From NCBI GenBank assembly GCA_004794655.1, contig SMMW01000622.1:124001-188000 (forward strand): DNA of 64,000 nt, given 5' to 3'. The DNA comes from Marisa cornuarietis (Eukaryota > Mollusca > Gastropoda > Architaenioglossa > Ampullariidae). The position numbers and the translations under genes are program-made. Of the stretch, positions 11,445-62,124 are shown piece by piece. The notes beneath the pieces were generated by a model. That model ran no database searches. It was not told the origin of the DNA and saw only the letters and a program-made list of their open reading frames with translations. The stretch's first letter is position 1. Every line of letters begins with the position of its first letter.

Positions 11445-11457
11445 ATCCAGTCCATAT

Positions 11458-11522
11458 GCCCCCGTGGACCCGGCTTCTCGTGCCGGGGGTAAACACCCAG
11501 CCTCTCTCTGGCTGGGTGACTA
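11458..11522 (+). ncRNA. Truncated HDV-like ribozyme of Nimb B
   Basis: P1 (gccccc/gggggt with G·U), P3 (ggc/gcc), loop L3 (ttctcgt), a perfect nine-pair P4 hairpin (cacccagcc/ggctgggtg) and the joining segment actaagct are intact. The 3' strand of P2 has been removed by the internal deletion at about 11525. The P2 5' strand reads gtggacc instead of gtgggcc. The missing strand predicts no folding into the active pseudoknot, so this copy is a useful natural negative control. Confidence 0.6.
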
Positions 11523-11529
11523 AGCTCGG

Positions 11530-11975
11530 CAGTCGTAGTGAAAAGACTGTCAGCCTCTGTCTCTGTCCAGACGGACATGACATGGATCTCTTCAAGCAGT
11601 GGTGGCTCCCAGTCATCACAAACAACGCAGACCACACAAGTGCCAACAACCAAGCAAACCTCACCAATCAGACTGACACGGCAACAAACACGAAACACAA
11701 AATCACCAAAAGGCAAAAACACTACATCACAGACAAAAAAGAAAGACACAAGAAAAAACAAAATCACCAGACAAACACACTCCACAACAACAAACATCTG
11801 GGGCCACCACAGTAGCAAATTCTGTCCCTGTGTCAAACCGTTTTGCCTCTCTTGGCGAGCAGGGGATGGACATGGACAAGCGAAGTCTTGCGTCGCCTTC
11901 TCCATCCTGCCGCCCCCTGCCCTCTCCTTCTCCTACTCCTTCTTCTATGAGGCGCTCTGCGTCATACCCACGATC
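11530..11975 (+). pseudogene. Nimb B ORF1 C-terminal remnant
   Basis: This matches the C-terminal third of ORF1 in copy C: VSVQTDMTWISS, a Thr/Gln/Lys-rich low-complexity stretch (TRQQTRNTKSPK), NRFASLGEQGMDMD and SPSPTPSSMRRSASYP, in two alternating frames. The N-terminal domain and zinc knuckles are absent because of the deletion that joins the 5' leader to this point. No start codon in context is left. Confidence 0.7.
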
Positions 11976-15300: not shown

Positions 15301-16001
15301 GAAGCAAGGTATTCAGTTAGACCTTCACGACCTTGGCTTCTGGGGTCGTATGCCTATCTTCATTTAAAACTTTCTATCGCACCGACTTTTTCAAGTTCAT
15401 GTAGGATCTATTCTGTCTGATCCTCAGGAACAGGAAATGGGCGTCCCACAGGGCAGCATCCTTTCACCAACTCTCTTCAACATTAAAATAGATGCTATCC
15501 TAAAATCTGTCTCTCCAGGTTTGGAGGCCTCATATGTAGATGACTTTGCTCTGTACATTCGAGGCCGTTTGCTGCCATGCCTCGAACGCCAGCTTCAGCT
15601 GTGCGTAAACAGTGTGCAGAAGTGGGTGACAGAAAATGGCTTCAAATTTTCTCCCACAAATACAGTATGCATCCACTTTTGTAAACTAAGAGGCATGTTT
15701 CCAGACCCTTGTATTTCTGTCAATGGCACGGTACTCAAAGTGGTTCAGGAAGTAAAATTTCTTGGGGTCATCTTTGACCATAAACTATCCTTTCTTCCTC
15801 ACATCAGATCTCTCCGCCTTTCATGTCAGAAAGCCTTGGACATTCTTCGAGTAGTTGGCCATGTCAGCTGGGGGGCAGACCACACGGTCCTGCTTCACCT
15901 GTATCGTGCCCTGGTCCGCTCCAAGCTAGACTATGGATCCATCATCTTTGGCTCTGCCCGAGAGTCCTATCTCAAAATTCTTGATCCTATTCATCATCAA
16001 G
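15301..16001 (+). pseudogene. Nimb B ORF2, central RT segment
   Basis: The RT continues from the hAT-like insertion: an EQEMGVPQGSILSPTLFNIKID block from about 15430, ASYVDDFALYIRGRLLPC with the catalytic DD near 15540, VTENGFKFSPTNTVCIHF, KFLGVIFDHKLSFLPHI, and LVRSKLDYGSIIFGSARE, stopping at ILDPIHHQ where Nimb C was inserted after tcatcatcaag (15991-16001). One residue is missing before YVDD compared with copy C (ASLYVDD). Confidence 0.8.
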
Positions 16002-16003
16002 TG

Positions 16004-16079
16004 GCCCCCGTGGGCCCGGCTTCTCGTGCCGGGGGTGAACACCCAGCCTCTCTCTGGCTGGGTGACCAAGCTGGCCCAC
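16004..16079 (+). ncRNA. HDV-like self-cleaving ribozyme fold at the 5' end of Nimb C
   Basis: All elements of the fold are present. P1 is 16004-16009 with 16031-16036, including the G·U pair at the cleavage site. P2 is gtgggcc at 16010-16016 with its exact reverse complement ggcccac at 16073-16079. P3 is ggc/gcc with loop ttctcgt. P4 is a perfect nine-pair hairpin at 16040-16064. The joining strand accaagct (16065-16072) matches the C-N-A-A-G pattern that holds the catalytic C in the antigenomic HDV ribozyme. Cleavage would fall just before 16004. Two bases lie between the target duplication and that point. Self-cleavage itself is inferred, not seen. Confidence 0.7.
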
Positions 16080-16592
16080 CCCTTTCCCTTAGGCTTTTCT
16101 CCTTTCTCCCTCACTGGCCCTTTCACCTTTATTCCTTTTCTAAACAAACATCTCTCTATCACACTGCAGTTTTGTCTTCTCTATCTTCTGCCTACACTGG
16201 CCTTTCCCTGTCTTCTTCTCCAATCATGCCTCTCTTTTAATGCAGCTCCTTTCTCTGTGGCCTCCTTTAGGCCCCCTGCGTTTGCCGTGCAGGGTGACCC
16301 GTGTCGGGGGAGGATGGGATCCTGGAGATTGGGGCCCACTATACCAACACACCTCTTTGGCCCGGACTTCTCCTAGACTGGAGGTTGGTATGGCCCACAC
16401 CAATCAAGCGGCTAGTCGTGCATTACACTAGCTTGGCTAGAAGGCTGCGGCCGGGGTCAATCTGGTCTACACACTCTGTAGGCCAGAGTATATTCCTTAT
16501 GTATCCCTGGTGCGACCGTGCTGGAAATGCCCTATGTGGTACCGCTCGGTCGCATCCCCTTGTTGGACTCCGTGGTGGGTGGGGAGCATAAG

Positions 16593-16989
16593 TCAATCAA
16601 TCAATCCTCTTCGTGCTATTTGCACATAAGGCCTCAACCAGAGCCCTCCACTGATGTCGATCGGCTGAAACCCGCTCCAGGCGACCCCATGTCCAGCCCT
16701 TTCCTTTCATCTCCCTTTCCACTGTTCTTCTCCAGGTTTCCTTTGGACGGCCTCGTTTTCTTCGGCCGTCTGGAGTCCATCATAGGGCGATTTTGGAGAG
16801 GTCTGCTGTCTGCTGGCGGAGCACATGTCCAATCCATCGCCAACGCCTTCGTTGAACCTGCGTGGTGATGGACTCGGTTTCAGTTCTTTGGTGGAGTTCT
16901 TCATTGGTGATGGTGTTTGGCCAAAAGATGTTAAGTATGCGCCTGTGGCATCTGTTTTGGAAGACGTCAAGCCTGTTACCGATGTTTTT
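16593..16989 (-). mobile_element. 5'-truncated RTE copy inside the Nimb C 5'UTR
   Basis: This 397-bp minus-strand RTE 3' fragment is nearly identical to 10660-10970 and is flanked by gggagcataag at 16582-16592 and 16990-17000. The plus-strand start tcaatcaatcaatc is its 3' tail, followed by the segment that the copy at 10656 has lost. It encodes only the RT C-terminus in part (EELHQRTETESITTQ, WIGHVLRQ region). It interrupts the leader about 30 bases before the ORF1 start codon, so it probably damages expression of copy C. Confidence 0.85.
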
Positions 16990-17023
16990 GGGAGCATAAG
17001 GAACGAACCTATTTCATTTCATT

Positions 17024-18415
17024 ATGGCACCAAAAAATTCAAAACTGGGGAAAAGAACTAGAGAGGATGTATTTTCGTCTCATAGCGAGGATGAAGTGCG
17101 TGAGGATGTGAATGTTCGAAAGGCTGTAGAGAGGGCTTGGCCCCGTTTTCTTGTTGTGGAGGGCGCAGAGTCGGCTCGGCCACTCTCGTCCCTCTCCCCT
17201 TTCGCTATAGACAAAGGATTTAAAAATATTTCCACAACTGGTTTTGTATCTATAGAATCTAAGAAACTTCGCACTGGACAATTTCTGGTCCAGTGCAACA
17301 CTCAGAAGGCATTGGAGGCTCTACGCCGATGGGACTCGAAACAGTTTGTTGACCGCCCCATCAAAGTGACAGTCCATAGATCCCTCAACTCCTCCAGGGG
17401 TGTCATTAGGTGTCCCGACCTTGCTGGGATGTCGGAACTTGACATCAAGTCAGAACTGGCATCCCAGGGGGTTACAGCAGTCCAGAGGGTCCACCTCAAG
17501 AGGGATGGGAACTCTGTGCCTACCAATACACTCTTTCTGACTTTCTGCCTTCCCAAATTACCCAAATCTATCCTGGTCGGGTATCTACGGGTCAAGGTCT
17601 CTCTATTCATTCCATCTCCTTTGCGCTGTTTCAACTGTCAGCGTTATGGCCATGGGGCAAGCTCTTGCAAGTCCCAAGCCCGCTGCTTCCGCTGCGGTGA
17701 GGTTGGCCACGCTGCAGCTGACTGTTCTAAAAGCGCACACTGTGCTAACTGTGACGGTGCGCACACTGCCTCTTCAAAAGACTGCCCGAAGTGGAAGGAT
17801 GAAGCAACCATCCAGCGTGTACGCGCAGAATCTGGCATTTCGTATGCCGATGCACGCCGTCGCATGGTGGCTGACCCTCCTACATCAGGTTCCACCTCTT
17901 TTTCAGCAGTTGTTGCAAAGCGACCGTTAGTTTCTGTGTCTATCCAGACGGACATGACATGGGTCTCTTCTGAGGGCCCAGTCCCAGTCCGTCAAAATAT
18001 GCCTCCTCCTCCTCCTGCAAACAGTGGTGGCACCCAGTCAACACAAGCATCTCAAACAACTCAAACATCACAGCCCAAACAAGCTTCACCAGCCAGGAAC
18101 ACTACACGTCAACAAACACGAAACACAAAATCACCAAAGAACAAGAACACCACACCGCAAACAGACAAGAATACAAAATCAAAAGCAAAATCACCAGAAA
18201 AACCCATCACTCAGCACAAAACATCTGGGCCCACCACAGCTGAAATTTCAGTCCCTGTTTCCAATCGTTATGCCTCTCTTGGCGAGCAGGGGATGGACGT
18301 GGATGAACGACGCTTAGCGTCGCCTTCTCCGTCCCGCTGTCCCCTGCCCTCTCCCTCTCTTTCTCCATCTCCTGTTGCTCCTGTGAGGCGCTCTGCGTCT
18401 TTCCCTCACAGATAA
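17024..18415 (+). CDS. Nimb C ORF1, three-zinc-knuckle RNA-binding protein
   Basis: This intact 463-residue frame starts MAPKNSKLGKRTRED. An acidic/basic N-terminus is followed by a domain at residues 35-165 (AVERAWPRFLVVEG, QFVDRPIKV, RGVIRCPDLAGMSE) that looks like the RNA-binding part of ORF1 proteins. Three CCHC-type knuckles lie at about residues 205-255: CFNCQRYGHGASSC, CFRCGEVGHAAADC and CANCDGAHTASSKDC. The C-terminal 200 residues are low-complexity Gln/Thr/Lys and Ser/Pro. Such proteins bind the element RNA in a cytoplasmic particle. The stop is separated by one base from the ORF2 ATG (TAAAATG), which suggests coupled re-initiation. The RTE insertion just upstream may silence it. Confidence 0.87.
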   Translation: MAPKNSKLGKRTREDVFSSHSEDEVREDVNVRKAVERAWPRFLVVEGAESARPLSSLSPFAIDKGFKNISTTGFVSIESKKLRTGQFLVQCNTQKALEALRRWDSKQFVDRPIKVTVHRSLNSSRGVIRCPDLAGMSELDIKSELASQGVTAVQRVHLKRDGNSVPTNTLFLTFCLPKLPKSILVGYLRVKVSLFIPSPLRCFNCQRYGHGASSCKSQARCFRCGEVGHAAADCSKSAHCANCDGAHTASSKDCPKWKDEATIQRVRAESGISYADARRRMVADPPTSGSTSFSAVVAKRPLVSVSIQTDMTWVSSEGPVPVRQNMPPPPPANSGGTQSTQASQTTQTSQPKQASPARNTTRQQTRNTKSPKNKNTTPQTDKNTKSKAKSPEKPITQHKTSGPTTAEISVPVSNRYASLGEQGMDVDERRLASPSPSRCPLPSPSLSPSPVAPVRRSASFPHR

Positions 18416-19646
18416 AATGTCAACAATCCTTCAGTGGAACTGTCGAGGGATCCAAGCCAACTTTGAAGAACTTCGAGTCTTAGCATCTCGTCTCTCTCTT
18501 GAGATCATAGCTCTTCAAGAGACTCTTCTACTACCTTCTACCCCTTTTACCTTCAAAGGCTTTCACATTTTACGTCAGGACTCGCAGAATGACGTTCCTT
18601 CAGGTGGGACTGCTCTTCTCCTTCGTGCCCACCTTCTGTTTAGCCAGATACCACTTTCTACTCCTCTTCAAGCTGTTGCTGCCCGGGTTTCTCTGGGCAA
18701 AACTTTCACTGTCTGTAGTATCTATCTTCCTCCATCGGCTCGGATCTCCCGACAAGACATTGAGGGTCTTCTGACCCAACTCCCTCCTCCCATCCTTCTT
18801 TTAGGGGACTTCAACGGACACCATCCCCTGTGGGGCGGGGCATCGGGTGACACCAGGGGGGAGTTGTTGGAATCCATTTTTATGGAAAGGGATCTATGCC
18901 TTCTAAACGACGGCTCAAACACCTTTTGCCGTCCTTCCTGTGGCATTGTCTCTGCTGTGGATCTGTCGGTCGTCAGCCCCACACTACTACTCGATTTGAA
19001 CTGGACAGTGTATGACGATCTGTGTGGCAGTGACTACTTCCCAGTAGTTTTACAGCTCTTAACTCCTCTAGAGCAGGAAGGTACTTTCCGCGAGGGCGGG
19101 TGGAACCTGTCTAGAGCAGACTGGCCTGCTTTTCAGGCCCTCTGTAACACCCGGCTTTTCTCAGACTCTAGTTTTAACTTAGATGTAGAGGACTCTAGGG
19201 ACGATCATACATTACACCCTATTAACCAGTTTACCTCTACTTTAACTGAGATAGCTTCAGAAACAATCCCTAGACAAGGACTTCAAAATCGCCGACCACG
19301 CGTACCGTGGTTTACTGAGGAGTGCAGGGTGGCCCAGCATGCTCGGAAGAAGGCCCAGCACCTTGCCTTCCGCCACCCAACTCCTGAAAATGTGATAAGT
19401 TTTAAACGTTGCAGAGCTCAGGCTCGTTTTACATTTAAACAGGCAAGAAAACTTGCGTGGCAAAGGTATGTGTCCTCTTTGTCCTCCCGTACCACTTCTC
19501 AGGCGGTGTGGGCAGCCATTAGGAAAATAAAGGGAAGGTTTCAGGCTGACTCAATAGGCCACCTGCGGGTTGGAAACTCTGTTCTCACAGAACCACGGGA
19601 TGTTGCCAATTCGCTGGCATCCAACATTGCCCAAAACTCCTCCTCT

Positions 19647-20174
19647 TCAAATTACTCTCCTGATTTTCAGCGTATGAAACTTTTTCAGGAATCTCTTCCC
19701 TGTGACTTTTCCTCAAATAACTCAGAACAGTATAACTTACCTTTTTCTCTTAACGAACTGCAGCAGGCCCTTCAAAAGTGCAAGGACTCTGCACCTGGCC
19801 TAGACAACATTCCATATCAGCTTCAAATTACTCTCCTGATTTTCAGCGTATGAAACTTTTTCAGGAATCTCTTCCCTGTGACTTTTCCTCAAATAACTCA
19901 GAACAGTATAACTTACCTTTTTCTCTTAACGAACTGCAGCAGGCCCTTCAAAAGTGCAAGGACTCTGCACCTGGCCTAGACAACATTCCATATCAGCTTC
20001 AAATTACTCTCCTGATTTTCAGCGTATGAAACTTTTTCAGGAATCTCTTCCCTGTGACTTTTCCTCAGATAACTCAGAACAGTATAACTTACCTTTCTCT
20101 CTTAACGAACTGCAGCAGGCCCTTCAAAAGTGCAAGGACTCTGCACCTGGCCTAGACAACATTCCATATCAGCT
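19647..20174 (+). repeat. Triplicated 176-bp segment in the Nimb C RT
   Basis: Three head-to-tail copies start at 19647, 19823 and 19999, each 176 bases and differing by only a few bases. Each encodes SNYSPDFQRMKLFQESLPCD through APGLDNIPYQL. Because 176 is not a multiple of three, the frame is lost at each junction. The single-copy state is seen in Nimb B (13180-13360). Slippage, unequal exchange or an assembly error could explain it. The two extra copies are nearly identical, so the event is recent. Confidence 0.93.
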
Positions 20175-20642: not shown

Positions 20643-22932
20643 CTAGACCATCTGGTCCGTTTTGAAACTTTTGTTAGGGATGCGTTTGTCAACAAGGAAC
20701 ACGTCTTAGGAGTTTTCTTTAACTTGGAGAAGGCGTACGACACCACCTGGAAGCAAGGTATTCTGTCAGACCTTCACGCCCTTGGCTTCCGGGGTCGTAT
20801 GCCTCTCTTCATTAAAAACTTTCTCTCTCAACGGCTTTTCCAAGTTTGTGTGCGATCTATCCTTTCTGATCCTCAGGAACAGGAAATGGGCGTCCCGCAG
20901 GGCAGCATTCTTTCACCTACCCTTTTTAACATCAAAATAGATTTTATCTTGAAATCTGTCTATCCAGGTTTGGTGGCTTCGCTGTATGTAGATGATTTTG
21001 CTCTCTGCATCCGAGGCCGATCCCTACCGTGCCTCGAACGCCGGCTTCAGCTGTGCGTAAATGGTGTACAGAAGTGGGTGACAGAAAATGGCTTCAAATT
21101 TTCTTCTACGAAGTCAGTATGCATCCACTTTTGTAAACTTCGAGGCATGTTTCCAAACCCATCTATCTCTGTCAACGGCACGGTACTCAAAGTGGTCCAG
21201 GAAGTAAAATTTCTTGGGGTCATTTTTGACCAAAAGCTTTCCTTCCTTCCTCATATCAAATCCTTACGTCTATCATGTCAGAAAGCCTTGGACGTTCTTC
21301 GAGTAGTTGGCCATGTCAGCTGGGGGGCGGACCGCACGGTCCTGCTTCGCCTGTATCGTGCCCTGGTCCGCTCCAAGCTAGACTATGGATCCATTATCTA
21401 TGGCTCTGCTCGAGAGTCCTATCTCAAAATTCTTGATCCTATTCACCATCAAGGGCTCTGCATCTGTTTGGGTGCCTTCCCCACCACTCCTGTACAAAGT
21501 TTGTACGCAGAAGCTGGTGAGCCTCCACTTTCTCTCCGTCGTCTGAAACTCATGCTGTCTTATGTCTGTCGCTTAAGAGCTCATCCTGGAAACCCTGCTT
21601 ACCGTGCTGTTTTCGGACCTTAGCGTGCTGCCCTGTATGCCATTCGTACCAAGGAGATAAAACCAGTATCACTCCGTGTTAAACCTCACTTGCAAGCAGC
21701 CGGAGTAGATATTCAGCAGGTAGAGACTCCCTCTCTTACCAGCTCCTCCTTGGACTCTACCTGTTCCAGAGATCCGTCTTGATCTTTGCGCTTTCAAGAA
21801 AGGAGACACCTGTGATCTCATCTTTCTTCAGCGTTTTCAAGAACTGCTTTCTGACTATCCTGGTTTCTGTTCTGTCTTTACAGATGGCTCCAAAGTCCCG
21901 AATGGTGGCCCTGTGGCTGCGGCAGCAGTCCCGTCCTGCCAACCGCAACGGGCATCTTCTGCCCGACTTGCGGATGGCTGCTCTATCTTCTCTGCAGAAC
22001 TTCAAGCCATTTTGCTAGCCTTGCAGCATGTTGACCGCTCTTCGGAACAAAATTTTCTGATCATTTCAGACTCACTATCAGCTCTCCAAGCTCTTCTTTC
22101 CCAACGTTTCGACCACCCCATGGTGGTCCAGATTCATACAACCCATGCAGCCTTACTGCGACGGAAGAAAGACATTGTTTTCATCTGGGCTCCTGGCCAT
22201 GCAGGTATCCCAGGCAATGTTCGAGCGAACCAGGCCGCCAAGGCTGCATGTCAGTCTCCTGGTAAACTACTCTCAATTGTATCAGCAGACTGTAAATCTG
22301 TCCTCTCGGCCTATGTTCAGTCCCTGTGGCAACGCCATTGGGACACTCTGGGCCAAAATAAGTTACACGCCACCCTTCCCTCTCTTTCAGAATGCCTGCT
22401 TTCATGCCGTCCTGTGCGGCGGGAGGAGGTAGTACTTACTAGATTAAAGGTAGGACACACCTATGCCACGCAGTCACACCTCCTGAAAGGTGAACCACCG
22501 CCAGTTTGTCCCTGGTGCCGGGGAGTTTTGAATGTCGAACATGTCTTGATTGCTTGTCCTGGACTCCAGAGTGTCCGACAGCAGTTTTTTTACTGTAGAC
22601 TCTTTGTTTTCTTTGTTTAGGTCCATCCCACTGGCAACTATCTTTACATTTTTAAGGAGGATAGGGCTTTATCACAAGATTTAAGGTTTTATAAGTTCAT
22701 TGTTTTTGGTTTTTGCTTAGTTAGTGGCTTTTTGGGCCACAACACCCATTTTTATATGTCACTCCCTTTTTTTATGTTTGTTCCTGCACCTTGTGTTGGT
22801 TTTTAAGATGTTGTTATTATACATAGGGCTTGGTCCCTAAACTTTTTAAAGCTAAGTAACTGTTCCCGCCGTGATATAGCCCTAGTTGCTGACACGGCGT
22901 TAAACACAAACAAACAAACAATCATCATCAAG

Positions 22933-29724: not shown

Positions 29725-30611
29725 GTGGCCTACCGGCCCCCTACATGCATGCTGGATGACTTTTAAATTGTGGTTGTCAGCTCTGGGCAGGAGGAGGGAA
29801 ATAAATTAAAAGTGTAAAGTGTCCCTTCTGATCAAAAACCATGTCCCAAAGAGACATCTGTCACAATCCAACCCATCAAACACTTCAGCTGAAGCTATCC
29901 GCTACACCAGATGCATTTACTAACATTGAAACATTGCAATGAAACAGACTACAGTTACTGCCTTATTAGCAGAAAGTGAAAGGGGCTATGAGACCCAGCC
30001 TCAGTCTGAATCCGTAATTTTTTGTTCTTGCTATTCTAGTTGGCCGACTTCTCATGCCAAGGGTGAGCACCCAGCCTCACTCTGGCTGAGTGACTGAGCA
30101 GGCCCGCCTCTTTTTCTTTCACAGTTCAACCCGGATGAGGGAAGGTATGATCACATGCCATGCTGACTTTTTCATGCAGTCCGCAAAATACTTTCATCTT
30201 GCCCGACAGTGATGCTGACTGCCCCAGGTGTCTTTCTTGCCCACCCAGTACTTGTGGTAGGAGATGAAAACTCGAATATTTTATTGACTTAAGGCCATTT
30301 TTCAGTCATTGTCACTTTTACAGGGTGAGCATATAGAGATCATCCTCTCATTCATCCAATCACCTATCCATTCACACCCGTCCCATCATACATACATACA
30401 ATTTGTATACATGCACTGTATAGCAGTCCTCTCACTCACCCACTCATCCAATCACCTCTCTATTTATACCCCTCTCATCCCTATCCTACATATATACATA
30501 TATAACTATAGTCTGTATGCACATGTTATGACTACTTCCTAATGTTGATATTATGAATCAAAAAACACATTTCACATGCAGAGCAGCATCAGTATACATG
30601 GACATGGGGTA
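29725..30611. other. Unassigned spacer with a Nimb leader remnant and an imperfect repeat
   Basis: No gene is visible. At about 30040-30125 there is a degraded Nimb 5' leader (gacttctcatgcc, gagcacccagcc, ggctgagtgactgagcaggcc), enough to recognise the ribozyme P4 and joining strand. The block at 30344-30530 repeats itself imperfectly at an offset of 84 to 92 bases (catccaatcacct in both halves) and is followed by catata-type low-complexity sequence. Confidence 0.5.
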
Positions 30612-42221: not shown

Positions 42222-43430
42222 GTAACAGTTATTATTACCTTTATTTCTTCAGTGATTTCTTCCTTCATTGAAAAAAAAACTAGATGATAGAACAGCCTTC
42301 ACTACTAATGTTATTTGGAAAAGGAGCCCTCCACTATGTGATCCAAAGAACTTCCCAGGCTTTGATTTTTTTTCCATTTCACAAGTAACTTTTTTTTGTC
42401 TGCTTTGTTAGCCTGATTGGGTAGGCATTTCTAGTGGACTGAAAGCCTGTAATATTTGAATGATGCTTATTTAAAAATAAATATCAAAGATTTCGGTGAG
42501 AAGAAATATAAGACATCTTGAGATTCATTTACGCTTTGTGACTGTGTACCAGACTTGATAATGTGAATAATTGCATGGGTAATGATCACTTGTTGCCATT
42601 TTTACTGTTCCTGTTGGCCTGAGTTTTTCTGTGCTGGGATAAACACCAGACTGTGCCCAGCCCTTGAATCATTCTGCATTTCTTCAGTGCAGAGTCTGCA
42701 TTAACTGTCTCTCACCCTATCTTCAGCTGTCCATGTGTTTTAATGCTTAAAGCATTCTGAGAAACTCTACCTATGCTTATATTTTTCATCACATTCCTGT
42801 ACTGTTCTACCCTTCAGAGTCCTGCTTGCAACACTTCCCATTGATTCTTCTCCATCCCTAGACAACTCCTGAATATTGCTTCGGTCTCCTACACCTTCCT
42901 CCCTTGACCCCAAGGAATACAATTTTCCCAGACTATCCTAGCAGATTACCATGTTTTTTCATCTGCAGATGGTTCTAAACTGAAAAATAAAGTGGCAGTA
43001 ACTACTGTTTCATTCACTCAGCAATACCTTTCCTTTTAGTGTAAACTTTCCAATGAAAACTTTCCTGTTTTATTGCTGAATTCTGGGCTGTTTTTTTTTT
43101 TGTTGATTCCATGCCTTATTTCTTCAGTTTCTGTACATTTTGTAACCTCATTAATATTAACCCTTTCCCCCATGGGCCCAGCTTTTCATGCTGGGGAAGA
43201 ACATCCAGGCTTTCTCTGGGTGGGTGACTAAGGTGGTCTAGGACTTTCTCTTTCACCTTTCTTTTCCCCAACACTTTCTGGTCCTATCATCTGTATTCTT
43301 TTCCAATAAACTCTTCCCCTTCTATCCTCCTGTTTTATCTGATTTTCTTTTTATGGTCTTTCTTTTCACATCGTGTGTTTGTTTCTATTGTTTCTCTTCT
43401 CTGTGACCTCCTTTATTCCCTGTGTTTATT
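42222..43430 (+). other. l(2)gl intron with degraded Nimb remnants
   Basis: The first 500 bases show nothing. At about 42880-43020 there is a decayed RNase H stretch (cagactatcctagcagattaccatg, then tcatctgcagatggttctaaactg, corresponding to the DYPG...FTDGSK region). A degraded Nimb 5' leader lies at about 43163-43240 (P3 strands cccagc/gctggg, which keep pairing despite two changes). The remaining sequence is CT-rich like the Nimb 5'UTR. Confidence 0.5.
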
Positions 43431-43506
43431 GTCCCCGTGGGCCCGGCTTCTTGTGCCTGGGGTAAACACCCAGCCTCTTTCTGCCTAGGTGACTAATCTG
43501 GCCCAC
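43431..43506 (+). ncRNA. HDV-like ribozyme fold of Nimb D (degraded P1)
   Basis: P2 is perfect (gtgggcc, and ggcccac at 43500-43506) and P3 ggc/gcc is kept. P1 is weakened (gtcccc against tggggt, with a mismatch). P4 has a mismatch (cacccagcc against gcctaggtg) and the joining strand is actaatct instead of actaagct. The fold is recognisable but this copy is probably inactive. Confidence 0.5.
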
Positions 43507-43649
43507 CTCTTTCTCTTATGCCATTCTTGTTTCTCCCTCACTGGCCTTTTTACATATACTCTTTTTCTAACAAACCATCTCTCTATCCCACTACAGTTTT
43601 ATCTCTCCTATCTTTTGTCTACACCGGTCTTTCTCCTGCCTTCTTTTGT

Positions 43650-47639: not shown

Positions 47640-48180
47640 GTGCCTTTGTCAGTGGGCCCCTATGAGCCAGGCTTTAAGTGCCAGGTAAAACACCCAGCCA
47701 CATTCTGGTCGGGTGACCTATCTGGAGTGTCTGAGTTAGAGATTCACATGGAACTGTCATCCCACGGGGTTACAGCAATCAAATAAGTGACCCTTAAGAA
47801 TAACAAAATCTCTTTCTTTACCTTTATCCACTCTAAATTGAAATGCTAATTGCCTAAAAATGGTACAGCAGTGGATATCCTCGCAGTGTGGTATTGAAGG
47901 CAATGAGCAGGATGACAGAATGGCAAAATTAGGAGCTCAAGCCAGGCAGGATGAAAATAATATCAGCCTAGTGGAGATAAAGACCATCATCAAGGCTTTG
48001 CACAGACCACCCAAACCACCAGACAGCTACCATCAACTGTCCAGATCAGATCAGGTGATAACATCCACCTCAGGACAGGGCACAATAGACTAAAGCACCA
48101 CCTACCAACTTGCAAAAGGACATCGTGAATGCATCTCCACTCCAAGCATTGGGATTTCATTGACTATGCATCACCAGGAA
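47640..48180 (+). mobile_element. LINE debris: Nimb ORF1 piece and an RNase H fragment
   Basis: At 47640-47710 there is a Nimb leader remnant joined directly to an ORF1 piece (LSGVSELEIHMELSSHGVTAIK, about 47717-47785), another internal-deletion junction. At 47860-48150 a separate frame reads VQQWISSQCGIEGNEQDDRM and SLVEIKTIIKALHRPPK, DSYHQLSRSDQVI, which is an RNase H C-terminus of a different LINE family. 48180-48790 has short frames without motifs. Confidence 0.6.
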
Positions 48181-49222
48181 GAAGAATCGGTAAGAGGTGC
48201 ATATGACCAAGGCTATGCGGACTGACCATAGGCTCATGGTGTCCAACTCAAGCTCTGCATCCTGAGATCTGAAGACCTCTGGGACAGAAGAATGCAAGGC
48301 TTAATGTCTCCAAACTGCAGATCAACAGAAGTGGAGAAGAGTTCTTCTGTTCCCTGGACAGAAAGGTGCAGGGCATCCTCTGGGTCCAGTCCAGCAATGA
48401 GGAGCTGTGAAAATCCTTCAGAGATGCATTCCATTCAGTTGCTCTGGAAAACCTTGAACCAGCCATCTGTCATCATCAAGACAGATTTGGTGATGTAGAA
48501 ATTCAGGCCATACTGTTAGAGAAATTCCCTTTTCCATGCATCACCACACAAAATGGAAGTGTACTTCACGATGTACAGCAGAGTACAAAAGAGACTTCGA
48601 AGATGTGCAATGCCTAGATCAGCAGGAAAGTTCCACAATGTTCTCAAGGCTCTCTGTGGTCTGTAGTCATCTGGATCTCCCCCCATCCTCTGTACTGATG
48701 AGACAAAGCTTTTAACTGAAAAGCAATACATTCAAAGAGAGAGGCTGAGCACTTCGATAGTGTCCTAAACTGCTTTTTCTCTGTTAATGATGGCTGTGAT
48801 CCCAGCTTCTTGTGCTGGAAGTCAACTTCCAGCCTGTCTCTGGCTGGGTAACTAAGCTGGCTCACTCCTTTCTCTTCTGCCCACACTAATCAATTGGCTG
48901 GTCATGCAGTGCCCTAGCTTCGCTAAAAGGCTGAGGCCTGGGTCAGTCTGGTCTACATCTGCAGTAGCCCTAGTGTGACCCTACTGGAAATACCCTAGAT
49001 GGTACTACTCAGTTGCGCCCTCTTGTTGAACTCTGGGCAGTGATGGGCAGCAGAAGAAATTAATTGTAACAAAACAATCCAAAGTTGGGAAATGAAGCAG
49101 GGAGGATGAAGTGAGAGAGTGTACGTAAGTCTGTCAAGGGAGGCTTAATCCCATTTTCTTGCGGTAGAGAGCACTGTCGGCCCTGCTGTTCTCGTCACTC
49201 ACCCCTTTTGCAGTAGCTAAAG

Positions 49223-61395: not shown

Positions 61396-62124
61396 TTTCA
61401 TTATTTCAGTTTGAGGTGTTCATTAATGCTTTGAATTGGGTGTTAAGAGTGCAACATGCTTTAGCATTTGATTTGATCGTTAAGTGATGTTTATTCATTT
61501 TTATATTGTGAAGGACTCTTAATTATCTTATGCACAATGACATTAGTCTCCTATTTCACTGGCAACAGGCCTCCATGGGCATGACTTCTCGTGCCCAGGG
61601 TGAACACCCAGCCTCTCTCTGGGTGGGTGACAAAGCTGCCCCACCCCTTTCTCTTACGCTTTTCTTGTTTCTCCCTCACTGGCCCTTTCACCTATACTCT
61701 TTTTCTAATCAATCATCTTCCTATCACACTACTGTTTGTCTTTTCTATCTTCTGTCTGTACCAGTCTTTCCTTGCATTCTTTTTCCATCATGCCGTTCTT
61801 TTGGTATAGCTCATTTCTCTGTGGCCTCCTTTAGGCCCCCTGCGTTTGCAGGACGACCCGTGTTGGGGGAGGATGGGATCCTGGAGGTTGAGGTCCCTGA
61901 TGGGTTGCAGCCCATCATACCAACACACCTCTTTGGCCCGGACTTCTCCTAGACAGGAGGTTGCTGTGGGCCACACCAATCAATTGGCTGGTCATATATT
62001 GCCCAAGCTTTGCTAGAAGGCTGCAGCTGGGGTCAATCTGGTCTTCCTTTCTGAAGGCCAGAGTATATTCCTTTTGTATCCCTGGTGTGACCCTGCTGGA
62101 AATGCCCTAAGTGGTACTGCTCGG

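Follow-up and report, generated by a model that had tools for sequence, protein, structure and literature searches.

A predicted HDV-like ribozyme very likely sets the 5' end of a LINE in the snail Marisa cornuarietis

Background

HDV-like ribozymes are carried by several groups of LINEs. In the available excerpts of PMC3774820, the ribozymes of R4, Dong, L1Tc and RTE are described as cutting at the 5' junction of the element, whereas most R2 ribozymes cut upstream, in rRNA. The same excerpts give the R2 ribozymes a P1 of typically 6 or 7 bp, a P2 of at least 5 bp and a variable P4, and name a catalytic C besides four further positions that are rigid. In the L1Tc/ingi elements of trypanosomatids, the 5' ribozyme is located within Pr77, according to the accessible part of PMC4035085.

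Here we describe a LINE of the snail Marisa cornuarietis, several copies of which lie in a stretch of 64,000 nucleotides (the window, meaning the whole stretch of DNA that was analysed). The motif at the exact start of this element matches delta-type ribozymes, so that its RNA probably cuts itself free. Judging from the sequence, we predict with high confidence that the first 76 nt of the LINE form an HDV-like ribozyme, the cut end of which would set the start of each new copy. This putative assignment is supported by the fold, by the layout of the active site and, above all, by the fact that the DNA 5' end coincides with the predicted cut site.

Results

The leader of the copy designated C occupies positions 16004 to 16079 of the window (+ strand, as for all features below), and the cut is predicted directly 5' of G16004. 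Its 76 nt can be folded, as judged from the sequence and a descriptor, into P1, P2, P3, P1.1 and P4 plus the joining strand J4/2, and the order of the helices is that of the HDV-like nested double pseudoknot. P1 (16004-16009 with 16031-16036; GCCCCC/GGGGGU) begins with the pair G16004-U16036 at the predicted cut site. The P2 strands (16010-16016 and 16073-16079; GUGGGCC/GGCCCAC) are exact complements, as the first-pass annotation had stated, with 56 bases between them. P3 (16018-16020 with 16028-16030; GGC/GCC) closes the loop L3 at 16021-16027 (TTCTCGT, or UUCUCGU in RNA). P1.1, spanning 16022-16038, consists of T16022-A16038 and C16023-G16037 (UC/GA), and is CC/GG in the subfamily of copy A. 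P4 is a 9-bp hairpin at 16040-16064 (16040-16048 with 16056-16064), and J4/2 (16066-16072) reads C-C-A-A-G from 16066. The first-pass annotation had already pointed to the G-U pair at the cut site, the P3 loop, P4 and the C-N-A-A-G strand, all of which are present in copy C.

The HDV-like family has characteristic letter patterns in L3 and J4/2, and these were used in the descriptor. By position, both the C at the start of J4/2 and the HDV-like L3 letters are present; C16066 is presumably the catalytic C. The first nucleotide of P1, with its G-U first pair, lies by position where a cut is expected, and the DNA of the element begins at that same G16004. The helices leave some freedom in drawing. 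The border between P1 and P3 may alternatively be drawn as 5 + 4 bp, and the first base of the P2 5' strand, which is A in many related copies, may be part of the joint between P1 and P2. Between P1 and P2 this leaves a spacer of 0 to 2 nt, according to the drawing chosen. According to the available part of PMC4908430, one studied ribozyme was inactive without this spacer and had little activity with one nucleotide; the short spacer of the snail leader is therefore a real point of doubt.

The descriptor represents the generic delta-ribozyme fold without stem letters, and was written after the finding had been seen. Across both strands of the window it identifies a single site, 16004-16079. Sites of equal or higher score occur 8 times per 204 Mb in first-order Markov shuffles of the window, and twice per 118 Mb in shuffles of 16000-17024. 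When the 78-nt leader itself was shuffled 2,317,500 times, 21 shuffles matched the descriptor at all and 2 reached the score. These rates serve as a guide, since the L3 and joining-strand patterns are general ones of the family and were chosen after the finding. The fold match at 16004-16079 is more than chance. A match to an HDV covariance model, proposed as a check by the first-pass annotation, did not materialise: the Rfam scans did not match a delta-ribozyme, with nothing in the window at gathering score and nothing in 15900-16200 at E values up to 10. Since Rfam contains models of described families only, such a match is not a defining feature of the fold.

The window contains nine copies of the leader, eight of which are in the alignment behind the leader model, with the one at 47655 outside it. 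Only copy C passes the strict descriptor. Copy A (1311-1388) belongs to the second subfamily, with P1.1 as CC/GG. Copy B (11457-11535) has lost the 3' end of the fold, copy G (48789-48867) is without P1, and copies F (30032-30109), H (47655-47732) and I (61568-61646) are decayed. Copies D (43165-43243) and E (43430-43508) are the first and second leaders of a tandem pair. The genome searched was the window's own assembly of 534,278,870 bases. The copy C leader has 417 candidates there, and the 40 that were scored are without exception 100% identical to it; for the copy A leader 40 of 260 candidates were scored, 17 of which show identity across 83 or 84 of the 84 nt. The copy C-type and copy A-type LINE subfamilies are young families. 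The copy H leader has no match in the genome besides itself. A pattern allowing all P1.1 combinations finds at least 156 near-intact leaders in the genome, and a pattern for other families sharing the inner 5' UTR finds one place.

L3 and the strand following the 3' half of P1 distinguish the two subfamilies, UUCUCGU going with GA in the first and UCCUAGU with GG in the second. For P1.1 this is a matched change from U-A to C-G, the other pair being C-G in both. Among 100 listed of the 156 pattern matches, 80 have the first combination and 20 the second, with no mixed leader; the leader L051 (numbers with L designate copies and relatives found in the searches) exhibits a U-G intermediate. Standard pairs are found at the outer P1.1 position in all 46 distinct leaders and at the inner one in 37 of 46. 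This double change is one evolutionary event, located where the second pseudoknot is formed. In the second subfamily the P2 changes lead to two wobbles with pairing kept, as had been noted for copy A. The A-U pair reported in P2 of copy G is likewise there, alongside a T/C mismatch in the same helix and no recognisable P1.

The A5 alignment (47 rows) omits window copies F, G and H, L031 (which is window copy D), L035, L050, L117, L130, L135 and L136, as well as repeats of identical second-subfamily leaders; covariation was counted over 46 distinct rows, one gap having been moved in the second-subfamily rows to line up P2. No supported covariation appears in P1 or P2 among the 46 distinct leaders, both helices hardly varying among the copies reached. 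The covariation test suggested in the first-pass annotation did not support P1 or P2, and the sole matched double change is in P1.1, which that annotation had not mentioned. It had instead cited P3 strands changed together to cagc/gctg in copy G and at 43165. The letters are as reported, but covariation in P3 is unsupported in otherwise intact leaders. In the mixed set of 46 leaders, older ones included, the first P3 pair is G-C in 23, A-U in 10, G-U in 7 and A-C in 4 (one-sided Fisher p 0.003, relatedness ignored). Among 100 listed of 151 otherwise intact leaders it is G-C in 89, A-C in 6, G-U in 4 and A-U in 1, such as independent CpG decay of the two sides would give.

Over 3003 pairs of positions, mutual information places the P1.1 pair at rank 7 and two P4 pairs at ranks 25 and 45, with other pairs lower; the top ranks reflect linked positions that are peculiar to the second subfamily. 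In a 27-row alignment the structure scores above every one of 500 shuffles for paired cells, for cells with a double change and for the covariation score, an excess that relatedness alone can yield, and is reached by 46 of 500 shuffles for pairs with double changes and by 53 of 500 for pair types. These data bear on the view that a G+C-rich, CpG-decaying stretch happens by chance to be drawable as a pseudoknot. P3 changes that behave as separate decay, mutual information dominated by subfamily linkage and a descriptor written with the finding in sight would all agree with chance, but the shuffle rates and the coincidence with the exact end of the element argue against it, and we consider it extremely improbable. 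A second view accepts that the leader descends from an HDV-like ribozyme and supposes that cutting has been lost in the young copies, the leader being kept for its structure, in translation or packaging. The second-subfamily P4, which has a mismatch, and the short P1-P2 spacer fit such a loss. Nevertheless, the young families retain all core parts as well as the exact G1 end, which makes the loss of cutting improbable in our estimation, and a ribozyme capable of cutting remains the preferred reading.

The 5' end of the element was examined in 56 young copies (37 of the copy C type and 19 of the copy A type), which provide 52 distinct flanks. Having been picked by their leader letters, these copies are identical after G1 by construction, and the information sits in the flanks. 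None of the 20 positions before G1 has a pairwise identity outside 0.24 to 0.36, and the value at -1 is 0.29 across the 52 distinct flanks; the shared sequence starts at G1, in agreement with the earlier proposal that the cut site defines the DNA 5' end. Three flanks are the element itself rather than host DNA (L011 and L012 share one; L029 is of another kind). Pyrimidines are enriched at -12 to -15 in the 52 genome flanks, where the target duplication begins; this is perhaps a nick preference of the endonuclease.

The 3' end was sought in 33 copies; a duplication counted as clear if it was plausibly placed and had at least 11 nt. Clear target duplications (11 to 14 nt) were found in 21 of the 33, and in 19 of these 21 the duplication abuts G1 with zero extra bases. 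The two others are L006, with one extra G, and L029, with ten bases repeating the first ten of the element. In L053, a whole copy, 6001 nt lie between the duplications. L030 was set aside because of its location in a tandem repeat, and the 5' flank of L003 ends in the duplication of L080, probably the same insertion. No element tail lies in the fetched stretch of L005, L022, L028 and L082, whereas L014, L015, L017, L023, L027 and L090 have a tail but no duplication, the tail of L015 being from another element. In the window, copy C spans 16004 to about 22921 and is inserted in an older, related copy, whose sequence continues from 22922. Its target duplication is TCATCATCAAG, located at 15991-16001 on the 5' side, where two extra bases follow, and at 22922-22932 on the 3' side. 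The extra bases at the window copies with a clear duplication are TG for copy C and AG for copy A. The first-pass annotation had described one or two extra bases at each junction, which holds for these two copies but not for the genome sample.

Unrelated flanks up to G1, together with flush duplications, place the DNA 5' end at the very base of the predicted cut. A constant DNA 5' end would likewise result from a precise transcription start, that is, from an internal RNA polymerase II promoter starting exactly at G1, the leader being only a structured, G+C-rich 5' UTR. Some LINEs do have RNA that starts at the exact 5' end (PMC3774820, in the excerpts available). Such a promoter predicts neither a delta-ribozyme fold at that very base nor the matched P1.1 difference, and an extra junction G, a possible trace of a copied cap under this explanation, is found in 1 of the 21 clear cases. 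The idea of a cap-derived extra G as a mark of the 5' end was dropped because of the 19 flush junctions. A promoter may also coexist with a ribozyme, as in L1Tc (PMC4035085, accessible part). We judge the promoter alone unlikely, and favour the predicted ribozyme as the determinant of the 5' end.

Two leaders occur in tandem in window copies D and E (43165-43508), and also in L033, L035, L036, L040, L046 and L132. By local alignment, five of these seven joins start at element nt 1-3, those of L036 and L040 at nt 10 and 16. At one locus (L093, G000:C404:4693100-4697900; L010-L012), head-to-tail units of nt 1-1717, with leaders 1715 bases apart, are joined exactly at nt 1, and a longer copy, also starting at nt 1, then follows. 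The extra leader units measure 10 nt, about 100 to 280 nt or 1717 nt, and their joins are mostly at or within 2 nt of G1. The tandem leaders may stem from template jumping at the cut end or from duplication at a later time. We tentatively suggest, as a possibility with the odds against it, that the ribozyme-cut RNA end is also a take-off point for template jumping, and that ribozyme monomers can in this way accumulate as an array in a lengthening 5' UTR. If this template-jump reading is true, each monomer in the array could cut, and the element, with its flush joins in 19 of 21 clear insertions, would offer a clean natural case of the integration of a ribozyme-made 5' end.

Downstream of the copy C leader, ORF1 (17024-18415) encodes a CCHC zinc knuckle. 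ORF2 is represented by an endonuclease part (18417-19853), after which the frame closes, and by a reverse transcriptase part (20724-21623). A stretch of about 176 bp is repeated three times in tandem, 99% alike, at 19645-20174 within this ORF2, which closes there. Both reverse transcriptase and RNase H are present in L053. Pomacea canaliculata has one close protein neighbour (72%, covering 27% of the query). As predicted from these coding regions, the architecture fits the I superfamily. The features of Nimb (an ORF1 with CCHC; an ORF2 with endonuclease, reverse transcriptase and RNase H) are all found, and other I-superfamily clades fit too. Gastropods carry both Nimbus and Ingi elements (PMC11203168, available part); for this reason "Nimb" stays a label of the first-pass annotation. 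Among the papers listed by literature searches, none joins Nimb with HDV-like ribozymes, and none of those on Baggins/RTE or snails reports such a case; priority is not certain.

Four relatives (L094-L097) lie on contigs filed as bacterial, in DNA of animal-like appearance. L095 (NZ_JRAA01000003.1:512965-530299) is a LINE with ORF1 and a 1236-aa ORF2, located beside bacterial-looking genes on a scaffold filed as Solemya velum gill symbiont; it is probably DNA of the host that was joined to the scaffold during assembly. L094, L096 and L097 are LINE endonuclease genes, and are probably host or eukaryote contamination. The leader model matches none of the four, L094 and L096 having too little upstream DNA to judge; in L097 (27% identity) the first 900 bases were inspected by eye. 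By eye, the L095 leader has a 5' UTR stretch in common, and it contains C-U-A-A-A-A followed by a 9-bp complement. As a ribozyme this at first promising candidate was rejected: a relaxed descriptor, applied to 300 bases, gives no fold. It has no blastn match to the snail leader, and its motif does not occur in the viral contigs. The snail leader pattern is likewise absent from the viral contigs and prokaryote genome contigs searched, and tblastn identifies no ORF2 relatives on viral contigs.

Discussion

The HDV-like ribozyme that the first-pass annotation placed at the 5' end of this LINE is supported by the fold, the active-site layout and the 5'-end coincidence, but not by the covariation argument advanced for it. 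In the course of events that we propose, transcription from a host promoter, or from one of the element, would probably yield a longer RNA that includes the element. Within it the leader would fold into the nested double pseudoknot and cut directly 5' of G1. The freed RNA, with a 5'-OH at G1, would serve for translation and as the template of target-primed reverse transcription; copying would proceed as far as the cut end, which would be joined flush to the target, and each new full-length copy would again start at G1 with the ribozyme. Cleavage, the 5'-OH end and co-transcription from upstream are steps that we infer.

If the leader cuts, an animal LINE with endonuclease and RNase H joins those whose 5' end is set by an HDV-like ribozyme. 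Its two subfamilies are natural variants of P1.1 (UC/GA and CC/GG), and the flush joins between duplication and G1 bear on the 5'-end integration of LINEs. The snail LINE is a new carrier of an already known working principle, and may extend the mechanism to a further LINE branch. The LINE with this leader is probably a further clade among the carriers of HDV-like ribozymes; should it prove to be Ingi, not Nimb, the clade is one already known for such ribozymes. Nimbus (BgI) of Biomphalaria glabrata is likewise an I-superfamily LINE of a snail (PMC11203168, in part), and Nimb-1 of shrimp likewise has endonuclease, reverse transcriptase and RNase H (PMC5055719, in part). In the available text of these two sources ribozymes are unmentioned, with term counts of 0.

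With R4, Dong, RTE and R2, the snail LINE shares the type of fold at the 5' end of the element, and with R4, Dong and RTE the predicted location of the cut site at the element's 5' junction, on the strength of the available excerpts of PMC3774820. It differs from all four in belonging to another group, with endonuclease and RNase H and no fixed target seen. In the same excerpts, R2 ribozymes resemble the snail leader in helix lengths (in the snail, 6 bp for P1 and 5 bp or more for P2), but most of them cut upstream in rRNA, in contrast to the cut predicted at the end of the snail element. The accessible part of PMC4035085 reveals further likenesses with L1Tc/ingi: a 5'-terminal HDV-like ribozyme, an element with endonuclease, reverse transcriptase and RNase H, and leaders in tandem (SIDER2, two Pr77). 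There, however, the hosts are trypanosomatids, and Pr77 is a 77-nt hallmark that is also a promoter.
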